Shown here: one piece after another, positions 2,922 through 8,886 of the stretch | Position numbering within the stretch: position 1 is the first letter of the stretch | How the letters are laid out: each line of letters begins with the position of its first letter | Origin: Intestinibacillus massiliensis | GTDB lineage: Bacteria > Bacillota > Clostridia > Oscillospirales > Butyricicoccaceae | DNA: 64,000 nucleotides | Assembly: GCA_029267335.1 (NCBI GenBank) | Contig: JAJUJC010000003.1 | Span: 1-64,000 of the forward strand | Direction: 5' to 3' | Position numbers and translations under genes: made by a program | The notes under the pieces: model-generated | The model's input: only the letters and a program-made list of their open reading frames with translations | What the model was told of the DNA's origin: nothing | The model's database searches: none

Positions 2922-2950
2922 TTGATTTTGACGGCTTACGATGCTATAAT
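2922..2950 (+). promoter_or_regulatory. Sigma-A type promoter of the amidase gene
   Basis: TTGATT (2922-2927), 17-base spacer, TATAAT (2945-2950). The coding start is at 3006. Confidence 0.65.
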
Positions 2951-3005
2951 ACAAAATATATATCATAGGTTCGTTCGCGGTTTTTACATAAGAGGAAGTC
3001 TTGTT

Positions 3006-4955
3006 ATGCATATTTTTCAAAAATTCGGTATCCTATCGTTGACCGCGCTGCTGTCGTTGCAGCTTGGCGCGCATGCGACAGAACTGGCAGATCCGGAGAG
3101 CGGTGCGGGGAGCGCCCCCGTCAGCGAGAGCACCGTGCAGAGCGCGCCTGCGGTCATTGCGGACAATGACGAGGGGAGCGATCCGGAAAAGCCCGCCGCG
3201 ACCTCGTCTGCCGTCACAGTCGGTATCACGACACAGTCACCGCCGCTGCGGAAAGCATCCGTCACACAGGATAAAATTACACTCGACGGCGTGACGGTTC
3301 GGCCCGCGGGCTACAATCTTAACGACGAAAATTATTTCAAGCTACGCGACATCGCGTATCTGATGAACGGCAAAAAAGCGCAGTTCGACGTTGGTTGGGA
3401 CAACGATACGAGCAGCATTACCATGATGTCCGGACGCAGCTATCAAAAGGTCGGCGGAGAGATGAGCAGCGCAAGTGCAAAGCCGACCATTCGGGAGACC
3501 AACGCGCGCGTACTGGTAGATGGTAAGGCAGTCAGCATGACGGCGTATAATATTAACGGCAATAACTATTTCCGCTTGCGTGATATTGCCTCGAAGATCG
3601 GTTTTGAGGTCGACTATGTCAATCGTGTCGTCACACTGACGAGCGGCGACAGCAAGCAATATACCGTTACCTACAACATGAACGGACACGGCAGTCAGAT
3701 CGCTGCAGGTACGGTAGAGGAGGGCAGTAAACTGTCTGCACCCGCCGCGCCGACCGCTTCGGGCTATGTGTTTGTCGGATGGTACACGGATGCCGCCGGC
3801 ACAAAAGCCTACGACTTTGCAAGCAAAGTCAACGCAAATCTGACGCTGTATGCAAAGTGGGCAAAGAGCCATACCGTGTCGTTCAACATGAACGGGCACG
3901 GCACACAGATCCCGGACAAGACCGGCATCGCCGCAGGCAGCAAGCTCACCGCACCGACGGCTCCCTCGGCAGCGGGATTCGTCTTTTTGGGATGGTACAC
4001 CGATGCGGCGGGCAACAAGGCATGGGACTTTGCAAACGATACAGTCAGCGCTGATGTGACACTGTACGCAAAATGGACGGTCACCTATACCGTATCCTTC
4101 AGCATGAACGGACATGGCGCACAGACGCCGTCACAGCCGGGCATCCTCTCAGGCGGGCGCGCGAGTGAGCCGTCCAAGCCTTCTGCGAGCGGCTACCGCT
4201 TTGACGGATGGTATATCGACAGTGCATGCACGATCCAGTGGTCGTTTGGCGTGGATACGGTAACAAACGATCTGACCCTGTATGCCAAGTGGACAAGCAC
4301 TTCGGATGATGGCGCAAACACCGATAACAACACGGGTACCGGCGGTGGCACGACGACCAATCCGTCGACGGGCGCTGCAGTGGACGGCGTTATGACTGTG
4401 TTACTCGATGCCGGACACGGCGGCAGCGACCCCGGCGAGGTCGGCAACGGACTGGATGAAAATTCGGTCAATCTCACGGTTGCACAGCATCTGCGTGACC
4501 TGCTCGAGCAGTCCGGCGTCAAGGTCATCATGATCCGCGACGATCTTTCCACCACGGTCAAGGGGCAGGCGCGCATCGACAGAGTGCGCGAGTTGATGGC
4601 ACAGTACCGATTCGATCTTTCCATCAGCGTGCACCATAACGGCGGCGGTGCAGTCGGTGCGGAGGTCTATGTGCAGACGATCACACAAGACCCGAGCGGA
4701 CGCAGCAGAGCACTGGGTGAGCTGGTCATCCAGGAGTTCAAAGCGCTCGGACAATCAAGCCGCGGCGTTAAGACCAATAATCTGTACATGACACGCGTGC
4801 CCGCAGAGGGCTCTGTCCCTGCGATCCTCAGCGAGTTCTGCTTCCTCGATAATGTGGCCGATGCAGCGAAAATCGATACACTGGCGGAGCAGCAGGCGGA
4901 GGCACAGGCACTCTATAACGCGACCATGCGTTACTTCCAGCAGTATACCTACTAA
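3006..4955 (+). CDS. Secreted N-acetylmuramoyl-L-alanine amidase with stalk and InlB-type repeats
   Basis: A 649-residue exported protein predicted to cleave the amide bond between MurNAc and L-Ala in peptidoglycan. In order: signal peptide (1-25); an acidic Ala/Pro linker; a copper-amine-oxidase N-terminal-like domain with two copies of a YN(L/I)N-(Y)F(K/R)LRDIA motif (about 90-213); three Listeria-Bacteroides (InlB_B/Flg_new type) repeats of about 70 residues, each with a GWY and an LYAKW element (about 219-285, 289-358, 361-429); a Gly/Thr/Asn linker; and a C-terminal Amidase_3 domain (about 463-649) with DAGHGG (His471), Glu485, SVHHN and SEFCF. The ATG at 3006 follows AGAGGAAG and precedes the signal peptide. 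The domain order suggests a wall-associated autolysin or a spore-cortex/cell-separation enzyme; which one is not shown. Confidence 0.9.
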   Translation: MHIFQKFGILSLTALLSLQLGAHATELADPESGAGSAPVSESTVQSAPAVIADNDEGSDPEKPAATSSAVTVGITTQSPPLRKASVTQDKITLDGVTVRPAGYNLNDENYFKLRDIAYLMNGKKAQFDVGWDNDTSSITMMSGRSYQKVGGEMSSASAKPTIRETNARVLVDGKAVSMTAYNINGNNYFRLRDIASKIGFEVDYVNRVVTLTSGDSKQYTVTYNMNGHGSQIAAGTVEEGSKLSAPAAPTASGYVFVGWYTDAAGTKAYDFASKVNANLTLYAKWAKSHTVSFNMNGHGTQIPDKTGIAAGSKLTAPTAPSAAGFVFLGWYTDAAGNKAWDFANDTVSADVTLYAKWTVTYTVSFSMNGHGAQTPSQPGILSGGRASEPSKPSASGYRFDGWYIDSACTIQWSFGVDTVTNDLTLYAKWTSTSDDGANTDNNTGTGGGTTTNPSTGAAVDGVMTVLLDAGHGGSDPGEVGNGLDENSVNLTVAQHLRDLLEQSGVKVIMIRDDLSTTVKGQARIDRVRELMAQYRFDLSISVHHNGGGAVGAEVYVQTITQDPSGRSRALGELVIQEFKALGQSSRGVKTNNLYMTRVPAEGSVPAILSEFCFLDNVADAAKIDTLAEQQAEAQALYNATMRYFQQYTY

Positions 4956-5801: not shown

Positions 5802-5838
5802 AAAAAGCAGCAGAGACGGGGGCCTCTGCTGCTTTTTC
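5801..5838. terminator. Bidirectional terminator
   Basis: Perfect 15-base stem GAAAAAGCAGCAGAG / CTCTGCTGCTTTTTC. It ends the small plus-strand gene and touches the stop codon of the minus-strand gene that follows, so it can serve both convergent genes. Confidence 0.9.
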
Positions 5839-6695
5839 TATGTTGTTTGAAAATAAGGGGTCAGAAGGGGAATACGCGCTGCGCGTGCGGATTCCGCGGG
5901 ATGATCGTGCATCAGCCGTGCGGCGCAGCGGCGACAAAAGTCATCATACAAGTGCGGATCGCTGCGCAACTGCTGTTTGTAGCCCCAGATATGTGTAAAA
6001 TAAGTCTGCTTGCGCGAAAACAGCGCAGGCAGATCGGAAAATGCCGTGAGCTTCGTACCGTGTGCCGCGCATCGCATCGCAAGCAGCCGCTGCTCGGCAA
6101 AGACCATGTAGATCAGCGGGTCGCGCGCCTCGGGTGCATGCTCCATGAACGCCTGCGCGTGCAGCGTGTAGTCCGCTTTGAGGGCAGCATCACCGAAATA
6201 GGCGAGCGCGGTGTTGCAGGCAGGTACGGTCCAGTCGAGCGCGTCGAGATCGAATGGGGGCGACGCATGCAGCGCGCGGCGGTCGGGATAAATCGCAGGA
6301 TCGAGCGGCTCAAAGTGGATGACCGAGACCTCTGTCTGCGCGCACAGCGGCGCAATGTTGCGCCACACGATAAAGTCGGTGTCGAGCATGACACAGGGCG
6401 CGTCCATGGCATGCAGCGCGTACAGCTTGCCCGCCGCCCAAAAGACCTGCGGGTCTACTGAGGATGGGATCGCAGGGAGCGGGCGAATGCCGTCATCCCA
6501 AAGAAACTCCAGTCCGAGCGCGCGATAGTAGGCCGCCCCGCACTCGTCCGTGAACAGTGCGATCGAGCCGCAGGCAGCACGCCACGATAGCGCGGACAGC
6601 ATCGTCGTGAGCAGTTCGAACGGCTCGATACCATAGGGCGTATCCGGAAAGCGCGCCGCAAACGGGCGCGTCCAGTTCACATGGAACGCGCGCAT
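5838..6695 (-). CDS. Glycosyltransferase-like protein (DUF6734-like)
   Basis: A 285-residue soluble protein. A GT-A-like fold is suggested by an N-terminal segment with a polar binding loop, a Rossmann-like strand (SIALFTDE, about 44-51) and CVMLDTDFIVW at 101-111, whose Asp-Thr-Asp is placed like the metal/nucleotide-sugar DxD motif. Near the C-terminus is YFTHIWGYK, similar to a conserved His-Trp motif of the DUF6734 family. The start codon is one base after the stop of the upstream gene (6697), so translation is probably coupled and the two products likely work together. The sugar and acceptor are unknown; assignment as an active transferase is inference. Confidence 0.6.
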   Translation of the reverse strand: MRAFHVNWTRPFAARFPDTPYGIEPFELLTTMLSALSWRAACGSIALFTDECGAAYYRALGLEFLWDDGIRPLPAIPSSVDPQVFWAAGKLYALHAMDAPCVMLDTDFIVWRNIAPLCAQTEVSVIHFEPLDPAIYPDRRALHASPPFDLDALDWTVPACNTALAYFGDAALKADYTLHAQAFMEHAPEARDPLIYMVFAEQRLLAMRCAAHGTKLTAFSDLPALFSRKQTYFTHIWGYKQQLRSDPHLYDDFCRRCAARLMHDHPAESARAARIPLLTPYFQTT

Positions 6696-6696
6696 G

Positions 6697-7140
6697 TCAG
6701 ATCAGCTCCAATCCGTATCCGCCCGCAAAGCCCGAGCCGCAAAATGAGCCTGACCCGAAAAACGACGAACCGGAAAAGGACGTCAGATACGAAGTAAGGT
6801 AGGACGTGAGATAGGAGCCGACAAACGAGCCGGAGCCGGTCATACATGTGACAAGTGTCTGACACGAAACCGGCTCGCCTGTAGCGGGCGCGGCGACCGG
6901 ACCCGCCATGACCGGATAGCGGTTGCCGTTTTCCTCGGGCGGATACCAGCCGTTATGCTGTGGGTCTGCGAGAAAAACGCCGTGCGCCGATGCAGCGGCA
7001 GGAGCGGGCTTGTCCACACGCGCGCAATGGCGTTCGTAGCTGTCAAGGTCGAAAACGACACCGTCGATTTCGCGGTAGTGCACGGGGTCCAGCGCCAGAA
7101 TACCCGACGACGGGAGAGAGGCTTCGTCCAGTTTGTCCAT
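6697..7140 (-). CDS. Unknown protein with Ser/Gly/aromatic repeat tail
   Basis: 147 residues in two parts. Residues 1-90 are ordinary and proline-rich toward the end (DKPAPAAASAHG, NGWYPPEENGNRYP). Residues 93-147 are low-complexity: three tandem YLTS units (110-121), then Gly/Ser/Phe stretches (FSGSSFFGSGSFCGSGFAGGYG) and a short LELI end, with Cys at 93, 99 and 134. I recognise no family, signal peptide or membrane segment. The ATG at 7140 was chosen because AAAGGAG lies nine bases upstream; an in-frame TTG at 7164 overlaps that site. The many Ser/Thr residues and the coupled glycosyltransferase-like gene downstream make it a plausible substrate for modification; that is inference. Confidence 0.65.
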   Translation of the reverse strand: MDKLDEASLPSSGILALDPVHYREIDGVVFDLDSYERHCARVDKPAPAAASAHGVFLADPQHNGWYPPEENGNRYPVMAGPVAAPATGEPVSCQTLVTCMTGSGSFVGSYLTSYLTSYLTSFSGSSFFGSGSFCGSGFAGGYGLELI

Positions 7141-7181
7141 GGGCTTGCGCTCCTTTCCTTTCAAACAGTGCTTCTATTATC

Positions 7182-7210
7182 ATTATAGAGGTTTTGGGCA
7201 CAAAGCACAA
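7182..7210 (-). promoter_or_regulatory. Sigma-A type promoter for the Ser/Gly-tail gene pair
   Basis: On the minus strand TTGTGC (7205-7210), 17-base spacer, TATAAT (7182-7187), about 42 bases before the start at 7140. Confidence 0.65.
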
Positions 7211-7249
7211 CGGGTATTTAGAAAAAGAGGTAATAACTTACAATCTGCC

Positions 7250-7277
7250 TTGCATTTTTCGACAGAAACGTTATAAT
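7250..7277 (+). promoter_or_regulatory. Sigma-A type promoter of the FkbM-type gene
   Basis: TTGCAT (7250-7255), 16-base spacer, TATAAT (7272-7277). It is divergent from and about 40 bases away from the opposing promoter, so one regulator could control both. Confidence 0.65.
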
Positions 7278-7309
7278 AAAGACAAAAATGGAGAAGACGG
7301 AGAACCAAA

Positions 7310-8380
7310 ATGAAGTTTTATCAGGAGACGCAGACCGTGTGGGAACGTCTTGCGGCGGAGACACGACCGATCGCGCTGTACGGCATGGGCGACGGCGCGG
7401 ATAAGATCCTGCGCGTGTTCGAGCAATACGGTATCCGTGCGTCCGCGGTGTTCGCAAGCGATGGTTTTGCCCGCGGCAATCTGTTCCACGGCTTTCGCGT
7501 GGGCACACTCGCGGAGGTGACGGCGCAGTTTGGCGAGGACATCGTCATCGTCATCAGCTTTGCGAGCCAGCGTCCCGAGGTGCTTGCGCTCATGTATGCG
7601 CTGGAAGCGCATTATGACGTGGTTGCGCCCGATGTGCCGGTTGCGGGGCACGAGCTGTTCGATCGCGCCTTTGTACGGCAGCATGCGGACGAGCTGCACC
7701 GCGCCTATGACCTGATGGCGGATGCACAGTCGCGCACGGTGTTTGAACAGACCGTGGAATACAAGCTGACCGGTAACATCGCGTGCCTGCGCGCGTGTGA
7801 AAGCGACAAGGCGGAAGCCTTCACCGCGCTGCTGCGTCCCACGCCGCAAGAGCGCTTTGTCGATCTCGGTGCATATAACGGCGATACCATTCGTGAGCTG
7901 CTCGACTATACGGACGGGCAGTTTGCATCGATCACTGCGTTTGAGCCTGACCGCAAGAACCGCAAGAAGCTGCAAAAATATATTGATGATACGCTGCACG
8001 GTCGTGCGACTGTCGTGCCTGCGGGTGCATGGTCGTGCGACCACACCCTGTATTTTGCGCAGAGGGCGGGGCGCAACTCCGCAGTGAGCGGCGCGGGCGA
8101 GCCGGTCGCGGTGCGCTCGGTCGACAGCGTGCTCGCGGGCGCGCCTTGTACATTTCTCAAGCTCGATGTCGAGGGCGTCGAGCGGGACGCGCTGTACGGT
8201 GCACGAGAGACCATTGCGCGCTGCCGCCCCAAGCTCAATCTCGCGGCATACCACCGCAGCGACGATCTGTTCGCGCTGCCGCTCGCCGTGCATGAGCTGT
8301 GCCCAAGCTATCGCATCTATTTGCGTCATCATCCGTATGTCCCAGCATGGGACACAAATTTATACGCAATTTCACCGTAA
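7310..8380 (+). CDS. FkbM family SAM-dependent methyltransferase
   Basis: 356 residues. The N-terminal part (about 20-110) is a Rossmann-like module starting with PIALYGMGDGADKIL. The C-terminal half is the FkbM methyltransferase domain: SAM motif I VDLGAYNGDT (184-193), acidic FEPD strand end, and FLKLDVEGVE (about 279-288), which is highly typical of FkbM. Such enzymes often O-methylate sugars on glycans, lipids or proteins. It is divergent from the Ser/Gly-tail and glycosyltransferase-like pair, which supports a shared glycan-modifying role without proving it. The start at 7310 has a weak CGGAGA upstream. Confidence 0.82.
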   Translation: MKFYQETQTVWERLAAETRPIALYGMGDGADKILRVFEQYGIRASAVFASDGFARGNLFHGFRVGTLAEVTAQFGEDIVIVISFASQRPEVLALMYALEAHYDVVAPDVPVAGHELFDRAFVRQHADELHRAYDLMADAQSRTVFEQTVEYKLTGNIACLRACESDKAEAFTALLRPTPQERFVDLGAYNGDTIRELLDYTDGQFASITAFEPDRKNRKKLQKYIDDTLHGRATVVPAGAWSCDHTLYFAQRAGRNSAVSGAGEPVAVRSVDSVLAGAPCTFLKLDVEGVERDALYGARETIARCRPKLNLAAYHRSDDLFALPLAVHELCPSYRIYLRHHPYVPAWDTNLYAISP

Positions 8381-8463: not shown

Positions 8464-8886
8464 ATGGGATGTTTCTACTGTGACGAGCACCATGAGGGTC
8501 GCGAAGCGATCATGTTTAAGGTCGGAGACCTGAAGGCGGGCACGCTCTATCTGTTCAAGGATCAGGCGCACAAGGGTCGCTGCGCGCTCGCGCTCAAGAA
8601 CCACAAAAAGGAACTTTGCGAGTGCGACGCACAGGAGTGCGCGGACTTTGCCGCAGACCTTGCGAAGGCTTCGGGCGCGATCAAGAAGCTGTGGGGCTGC
8701 ACGAAGCTCAACCTTGGCTCCTACGGCGACACGAACCCGCATCTGCATTTCCACATCGTACCGAAGTACGAGGGCGGCTTTGAGTTCGGCGGCAGCTTTG
8801 CCATCACGAATCCCGAGCCGGTCGTACTGTCCGATGCCGAGTATCAGGAAATGATCGACGCACTGCGTGGTGAGCTCGGTCTGTAA
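8464..8886 (+). CDS. HIT family nucleotide-binding protein
   Basis: 140 residues with the histidine triad HLHFHIVPK near residue 97, the active site of nucleotide hydrolases/transferases of the HIT superfamily. The N-terminus contains CFYCDEHH and a later CECDAQEC, which may bind zinc as in several HIT proteins. The start was placed at 8464 because the AAAGGAG upstream is about ten bases away; an ATG at 8455 is too close to that site. A TATACT at 8410-8415 could be its -10 box, but the matching -35 is poor. Its exact substrate (AMP-linked dinucleotide or aminoacyl-adenylate type) cannot be told. Confidence 0.88.
   Translation: MGCFYCDEHHEGREAIMFKVGDLKAGTLYLFKDQAHKGRCALALKNHKKELCECDAQECADFAADLAKASGAIKKLWGCTKLNLGSYGDTNPHLHFHIVPKYEGGFEFGGSFAITNPEPVVLSDAEYQEMIDALRGELGL

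Follow-up and report, generated by a model that had tools for sequence, protein, structure and literature searches.

The first 64,000 nucleotides (nt) of contig JAJUJC010000003.1 of Intestinibacillus massiliensis (GenBank assembly GCA_029267335.1), hereafter the window, contain a compact locus of three open reading frames (ORFs) that encode a repeat protein, a 285-amino-acid (aa) enzyme and an FkbM-type methyltransferase, at the positions that an earlier note, made from the sequence alone, had given for them. We found that the enzyme and the repeat protein, its partner, are a real functional unit, because a partner with a conserved C-terminal tag adjoins the enzyme gene or co-occurs with it unlinked, and none of 40 enzyme-negative genomes has such a protein. 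Judging from the genomes searched, the pair is widespread in Clostridia. With a probability of roughly 0.6, we read it as a dedicated protein-glycosylation unit, in which a tag-recognising enzyme of glycosyltransferase fold type A (GT-A) and of the DUF6734 group would sugar the tail of its partner, the FkbM protein possibly methylating the glycan. The analysis supports this reading with the conservation of the pair, the coupling of its genes, the near-invariance of the tag, the co-occurrence without linkage and the predicted fold.

The tagged partner and its enzyme

The partner gene lies on the reverse strand (6697 to 7140, ATG at 7140, stop at 6697) and encodes 147 aa, arranged as a conserved N-terminal block, a GWYPPE/YPVMAG mid block, a Ser/Thr/Gly/aromatic tail (residues 101-147, positions 6700 to 6840) and a C-terminal GGYGLELI. 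The codons of the tag itself, G-Y-G-L-E-L-I and the stop, occupy 6697 to 6720, and the pattern occurs once in this genome. The enzyme gene follows on the same strand (5838 to 6695, ATG at 6695) with one base between the partner stop and its start, the spacing that the earlier note had reported. The unusual tail described there was borne out as well: S, T, G, F, Y and W make up 79 % of the last 47 residues. The richest 47-residue stretch of this composition in the window (81 %) belongs to the partner, and the next ORF reaches 60 % (247 stop-to-stop ORFs of at least 100 aa). The protein has eight [ST][FYW] dipeptides against a mean of 2.9 after shuffling, and 19 of 10,000 shuffles reached eight. 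Neither NCBIfam nor Pfam yielded a match at E ≤ 1, and a search of its own genome at E ≤ 10 returned only one match.

We detected the enzyme in 16 of 60 related genomes, every one in the window's own family, and in all 16 a tagged repeat protein is encoded directly upstream, with gaps of -1 to +4 nt. The alignment of these 16 partners (133-299 aa) shows that the N-terminal block and, above all, the last seven residues, G[YF]GL[EN]L[IV], are kept and that the repeats vary. Judged from this alignment, the conserved part of the partner is its C-terminal residues rather than its repeats, a point absent from the earlier note.

In a collection of 84,980 species genomes we identified 192 relatives, 80 of which make up the loci analysed; this set and the 16 loci share species. 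A tagged ORF stands directly upstream of the enzyme gene in 79 of the 80 loci, with gaps of up to 51 nt and the end motif G-[YF]-G-[LIV]-[ENHD]-[LI]-[IV]-stop. Our first script, which asked for a reading frame of 40 codons or more with GYG[LIV][ENHD][LI][IV] at its end, placed between -60 and 300 nt relative to the start of the enzyme gene, recovered 76 of these loci, and the other three are peptides of about 23 aa in Cellulosilyticum. Across the database loci the partners range from about 23 to 300 aa, and their N-terminal parts look, by eye, unrelated between clades. At least five [ST][FYW] dipeptides occur within the last 200 residues of 63 of the 79 partners. The tag Tyr was invariant in the 76 tags counted, and over these 76 loci the third codon positions of the tag vary while G-Y-G is unchanged. 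One relative (G022) has an intact pair with Phe in place of Tyr (GGFGLELI).

Two variants of the tail were seen in passing. In 14 of the 79 partners a YEYE-type insert sits between the S/T-aromatic repeats (L074, L082-L086, L090, L092-L094, L096, L102, L105 and L106). In a further family (f75; six loci, L137, L139, L143, L144, L147 and L149) the tail consists of poly(Ser-Gly) runs followed by the tag GYG[LI][DE]LI.

In an even sample of the class (391 genomes), the enzyme was present at E ≤ 1e-8 in 20 genomes and in 10 of 223 genera, one of the hits (G379) being only a 152-residue piece. The tag protein adjoins the enzyme gene in 15 of the 20 loci. The five exceptions (L141, L142, L145, L146 and L148) all belong to genus g132, where the enzyme gene lies behind an O-methyltransferase-like gene (by eye) and no tag protein was found within the 3.8-kb stretches examined. 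All five of these genomes encode, unlinked, an S/T-G-aromatic protein that ends in GYGI[DN]LI and precedes a U32-peptidase-like gene (by eye); in G474 the examined stretch begins inside this protein.

The pattern that located these unlinked proteins revealed no tag protein in the 40 enzyme-negative genomes: 38 had no match, and the two raw matches (G013 and G149) end in TGG. Applied to 10 genomes, it had hit nine, G220 and G456 twice; the surplus hits there are a frame of 19 codons and one interrupted by a stop. A narrower pattern, which excluded Val, had hit 17 of 19 enzyme-positive genomes, all but one of them a single time, the surplus hit in G118 being a chance frame of 14 codons. G115, missed because of the excluded Val, was found by the broader pattern, and G117, which has an internal motif, was matched by neither. 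We also considered a general C-terminal tag carried by many proteins and rejected it, since the enzyme-positive genomes that match have the tag once, apart from short chance frames. The pairing without linkage, together with the codon variation in the tag, argues at the sequence level that the tag acts as a protein and in trans.

Regarding the enzyme, a structure model built from 16 sequences reached a mean predicted local distance difference test (pLDDT) score of 94.7 and a predicted template-modelling (TM) score of 0.90. The best PDB matches by VIA-align were glycogenin-1 (Z 13.1), the UGGT catalytic domain (13.0) and LgtC (12.6), over residues 1 to 274-282. Superposition on glycogenin-1 gave a root-mean-square deviation of 3.9 over 213 aligned residues with 11 % identity. 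Foldseek also places the model with GT-A enzymes, but its TM-scores by query length were just 0.31-0.49 among the matches listed, so that the relationship is a distant one. No PDB chain matched the enzyme profile at E ≤ 1. The earlier note had proposed a structure check of this glycosyltransferase-like protein against GT-A folds, and the result was a high-confidence GT-A model rather than a protein lacking a transferase fold. The D-T-D motif it had pointed out is present at residues 105-107 (codons at 6383-6375, reverse strand) and is invariant in all 37 aligned members, as are N161-T162-A163, E201-Q202-R203 and H235-x-W-G-x-K240. The DXD motif, like the His/Gly/Lys pattern, is reminiscent of the residues with which GT8 enzymes bind metal and diphosphate. 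We therefore have a predicted GT-A glycosyltransferase, the modelled fold spanning the whole domain.

By sequence profile, the window enzyme matches DUF6734 (PF20508), which Pfam describes as a family of unknown function, with 20.2 bits (E 4.4e-4), under the curated cut-off of 27 bits. The same family matched at E ≤ 0.001 in 35 of the 37 aligned enzymes, and the four orthologues tested all passed the cut-off (L083, L100, L104 and L099 with 44, 47.4, 56.5 and 60.4 bits). On these profile scores the enzyme group belongs to DUF6734, the window copy falling below the cut-off. Searches of plasmids and phages gave no match to the enzyme.

The FkbM-type gene and the facing promoter-like sites

The third gene of the locus (7310 to 8380, forward strand) is divergent from the pair and encodes an FkbM-family methyltransferase of 356 aa, which scores over the curated cut-offs of both TIGR01444 (54.9 against 37.7 bits) and PF05050 (40 against 22.7 bits). 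The earlier note had seen a facing promoter here, and two divergent promoter-like sites of the sigma-A type are indeed present. That of the pair, TTGTGC-17-TATAAT (7182 to 7210, reverse strand), ends 41 nt before the partner ATG. That of the FkbM gene, TTGCAT-16-TATAAT (7250 to 7277, forward strand), was read by eye and ties at three mismatches with a different site listed by the promoter script. Both sites are conserved among the relatives: of 30 loci, 23 have a TATAAT no more than 50 nt from the partner start on the partner strand, and 26 have TTTACA-17/18-TATAAT on the FkbM strand. The mean number of mismatches to the consensus in these 30 loci was 2.7 on the partner strand and 1.3 on the FkbM strand, against 4.1 and 4.2 in shuffles (standard deviation about 1.0).

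The earlier note had proposed the three genes as one dedicated modification pathway and had suggested a search for their co-occurrence in related genomes. They do occur together outside this strain. Within the family, the 60 relatives include FkbM in all 16 enzyme-positive genomes and in none of the 21 enzyme-negative ones. In a larger set of genomes of the family the FkbM part, METHYLTRANSFERASE, had a match at E ≤ 1e-40 in 49 of 50 enzyme-positive versus 4 of 37 enzyme-negative genomes. Two of these four are incomplete genomes (80 % and 72 % complete) of enzyme-positive genera and the other two are weak matches of 39-43 %. When only genomes with a completeness of 90 % or more and a contamination of 5 % or less were counted, the figures were 35 of 36 and 0 of 16. 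The co-occurrence goes by genus, with the enzyme in six genera and lacking in nine, so few independent events stand behind it.

It is a serious possibility, only a little short of an even chance, that shared synteny alone has placed the FkbM gene here and that it is unrelated to the pair. Outside the family, only one of 27 genomes bearing the pair gave an FkbM match (E ≤ 1e-20), and at the order level FkbM occurs without the enzyme in 5 of 23 genomes. Among the 80 database loci, 33 have FkbM within the stretch examined, at a distance of about 4.3 kb in L049, and in 11 of the 16 relatives it stands beside the pair. In 8 of the 16 relatives a HIT-like gene follows FkbM on its strand, and the FkbM gene may belong with it. 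Against mere synteny, the gene tracks the pair within the family, the two divergent promoter-like sites are conserved, genus g11 has kept both FkbM and the pair although they are unlinked there, and three loci of genus g10 have kept the triplet although the flanking housekeeping block sits on the other side. We conclude that the FkbM gene is at most a clade-limited accessory of the pair, its link to the pair being unproven. The proposal of the earlier note thus stood for the two-gene pair, which is conserved, but the three-gene pathway as a unit was rejected on the single FkbM match among the 27 genomes.

Two further ORFs of the window deserve a mention. The HIT-like gene 3′ of FkbM lies at 8464-8886 on the forward strand and scores 19.5 bits with PF01230, below the cut-off of 21.5. 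A large ORF at 2922-4955, also on the forward strand, contains repeated GHG-type blocks ending in GW-Y-D and an amidase-like C-terminal domain (by eye).

Proposed mechanism and competing explanations

In the reading that we prefer, the enzyme would act as a GT-A glycosyltransferase of the DUF6734 group, soluble and dependent on metal, and would recognise its single partner in the cytoplasm by the C-terminal tag GYG[LI]x[LI][IV]. Sugar would then be added to hydroxyl residues of the adjoining tail, in most lineages seen to the Ser/Thr of the S/T-G-aromatic repeats, and in the short partner forms to a few Ser/Thr (or Tyr). In the window's own family, the glycan may in addition be methylated by the FkbM protein, produced from the facing promoter. 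We infer the catalysis, the role of the partner as acceptor, the sugar-bearing residues, the methyl step and the destination of the product; the glycosylation of the tail itself, already suggested by its substrate-like appearance in the earlier note, belongs with these.

Several points weigh against this reading. By sequence profile no known glycosyltransferase family matches the enzyme (NCBIfam and Pfam at E ≤ 1), only DUF6734. Dense repeats are lacking in 16 of the 79 partners (one of them, L053, cut by the contig end), and the three Cellulosilyticum partners, which have the same tag end and a ribosome-binding site recognised by eye, are tiny, so pairing does not depend on the repeats. In the 80th database locus, from a Spirochaetaceae metagenome-assembled genome (MAG; L104:4012-4995), GIGYGIDLI lies inside the upstream zinc-ribbon protein and not at its end, possibly a case of transfer or of a binning error. 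The 16 partners contain no strongly hydrophobic segment by hydropathy alone (largest 19-residue Kyte-Doolittle mean 1.17), which leaves the surface route of a glycoprotein without explanation. A read-through model of partner and enzyme from the Clostridium celatum pair, with the stop codon modelled as glycine, showed no confident contact and a tag pLDDT below 50; with its short tether and single chain it is uninformative rather than negative. Finally, instead of marking an acceptor, the tag could serve for docking or activation.

On the same side stands a viral contig (L163:5001-5879) that encodes a distant relative of the enzyme (34 % identity), with a similar second ORF upstream and no tag in the 6.6 kb examined. 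A tag at the end of a nearby protein is absent from both this contig and the Spirochaetaceae MAG relatives.

As an alternative, the partner could be a protein primer like glycogenin, with the enzyme placing the first sugar on the GYG Tyr, or else on a Ser/Thr close by, and other enzymes extending a polysaccharide from it. Glycogenins glucosylate a Tyr and are the nearest folds to the enzyme; the invariance of the tag Tyr and partners as short as about 23 aa would also fit. However, the natural Phe variant GGFGLELI occurs in an intact pair, long S/T repeats would be superfluous, and a polysaccharide gene was not recognised by eye among the recurring neighbours (clusters present in at least 3 of 16 or at least 4 of 40 loci and named by eye). 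We regard a primer as unlikely. Hardly better placed, and if anything a shade behind it, is the idea that the tag protein is an activating or targeting subunit and that the enzyme glycosylates something else. The one-to-one pairing, the short conserved C-terminal element with a variable remainder and the tiny partners in Cellulosilyticum are what one would expect of a docking partner, but tails rich in possible acceptors are found in most partners (the 63 of 79 above), in clades with different N-termini, and the further family f75 has poly(SG) tails.

That the tag protein is the precursor of a bioactive peptide, exported after glycosylation and cleavage in the manner of glycocins or other ribosomally synthesised and post-translationally modified peptides (RiPPs), seems very improbable to us. 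A small precursor with a glycosyltransferase, a conserved end and very short forms in some clades speak for it. On the other hand, the conserved part is the C-terminal end, where the core of a RiPP is expected to vary, the partners of the 16 relatives have the lengths given above, and inspection of the recurring neighbours by eye revealed neither a peptide transporter nor an immunity gene. Genes resembling peptidases are repeatedly present, but they belong to a housekeeping block that 9 of the 16 relatives share and do not adjoin the pair. A ribosome-arrest or leader peptide controlling translation of the downstream enzyme gene, as the conserved peptide right before the stop, its place just upstream and the variable N-terminus might suggest, is scarcely credible and was rejected, since the tag codons vary and all five genomes with a stand-alone enzyme gene encode the tag protein elsewhere, before another gene, and large conserved domains and repeats are not needed in a leader.

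Returning to tag-directed glycosylation, we see an even chance that the pair represents an undescribed protein glycosylation widespread in Clostridia, with a DUF6734 glycosyltransferase aimed at a single client by a nearly invariant C-terminal tag and with lineages that have kept only this tag and freely swapped the rest of the client, the forms of which run from peptides of about 23 aa to proteins of 300 residues that are poly(SG) or silk-like S/T-G-aromatic. The titles and abstract openings returned by our searches of the open-access literature contained no description of the pair or of DUF6734. A string of letters resembling the tag turned up in 11 papers there, which, by the ten titles listed, deal with proteins such as elastin, silk and shell proteins. 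The analysis offers a testable function for a family without one and points to its likely client in the Clostridia genomes covered. Should the tag prove to direct glycosylation, proteins could be sugared in the bacterial cytoplasm by means of a short, genetically portable handle. The pair is present in species of Agathobaculum, Butyricicoccus and Intestinibacillus, which are gut bacteria, several of them butyrate producers, and its product may help these organisms to present or protect themselves.

Comparison with known systems

Glycocins and glycosylated RiPPs combine a small ribosomal product with a dedicated glycosyltransferase. The pair differs in its conserved C-terminal end and in its mostly long products, and no export gene was recognised by eye among the recurring neighbour clusters. 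Glycogenin and UGGT both act on proteins. Glycogenin (GT8) is the closest solved fold to the enzyme, but here the acceptor would be a separate protein and the sequence profiles do not match; a glycogen gene was not recognised by eye among the recurring neighbours.

GtfA and GtfB are the linked enzymes of serine-rich repeat glycoproteins. These resemble our proposal in that, according to the accessible text of the source, a Ser-rich repeat protein is glycosylated intracellularly before export (PMC5578698). The 16 partners here, in contrast, have no hydrophobic signal-like segment as far as hydropathy tells, and the enzyme belongs to a different glycosyltransferase group. Neither a second glycosyltransferase nor an accessory Sec gene was recognised beside the pair among the recurring neighbour clusters, which were named by eye with no profile run.

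The closest working model for the pair, by analogy, would be SgtA-BclA3 of Clostridioides difficile, with several differences. BclA3 is an exosporium protein with collagen-like GPT repeats, whereas the tails of the 16 relatives are of the S/T-G-aromatic type, and sgtA lies upstream of bclA3, whereas here the enzyme gene lies downstream of its partner; the accessible text mentions no C-terminal tag (PMC7157674). Moreover, sites of the sigma-A (vegetative) type precede the operon described here. Nor does the pair follow sporulation as judged by SpoIVA, which 44 of the 50 enzyme-positive genomes and 25 of the 37 enzyme-negative ones contain. A role in the spore coat, which the SgtA-BclA3 likeness led us to consider, is accordingly not supported by the sigma-A type sites or by SpoIVA. 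What the two systems have in common, as far as that source describes it, is a glycosyltransferase gene directly beside the gene of one repeat-rich acceptor; in vitro, BclA3 peptides receive beta-O-GlcNAc from SgtA on Thr and also on Ser (PMC7157674).

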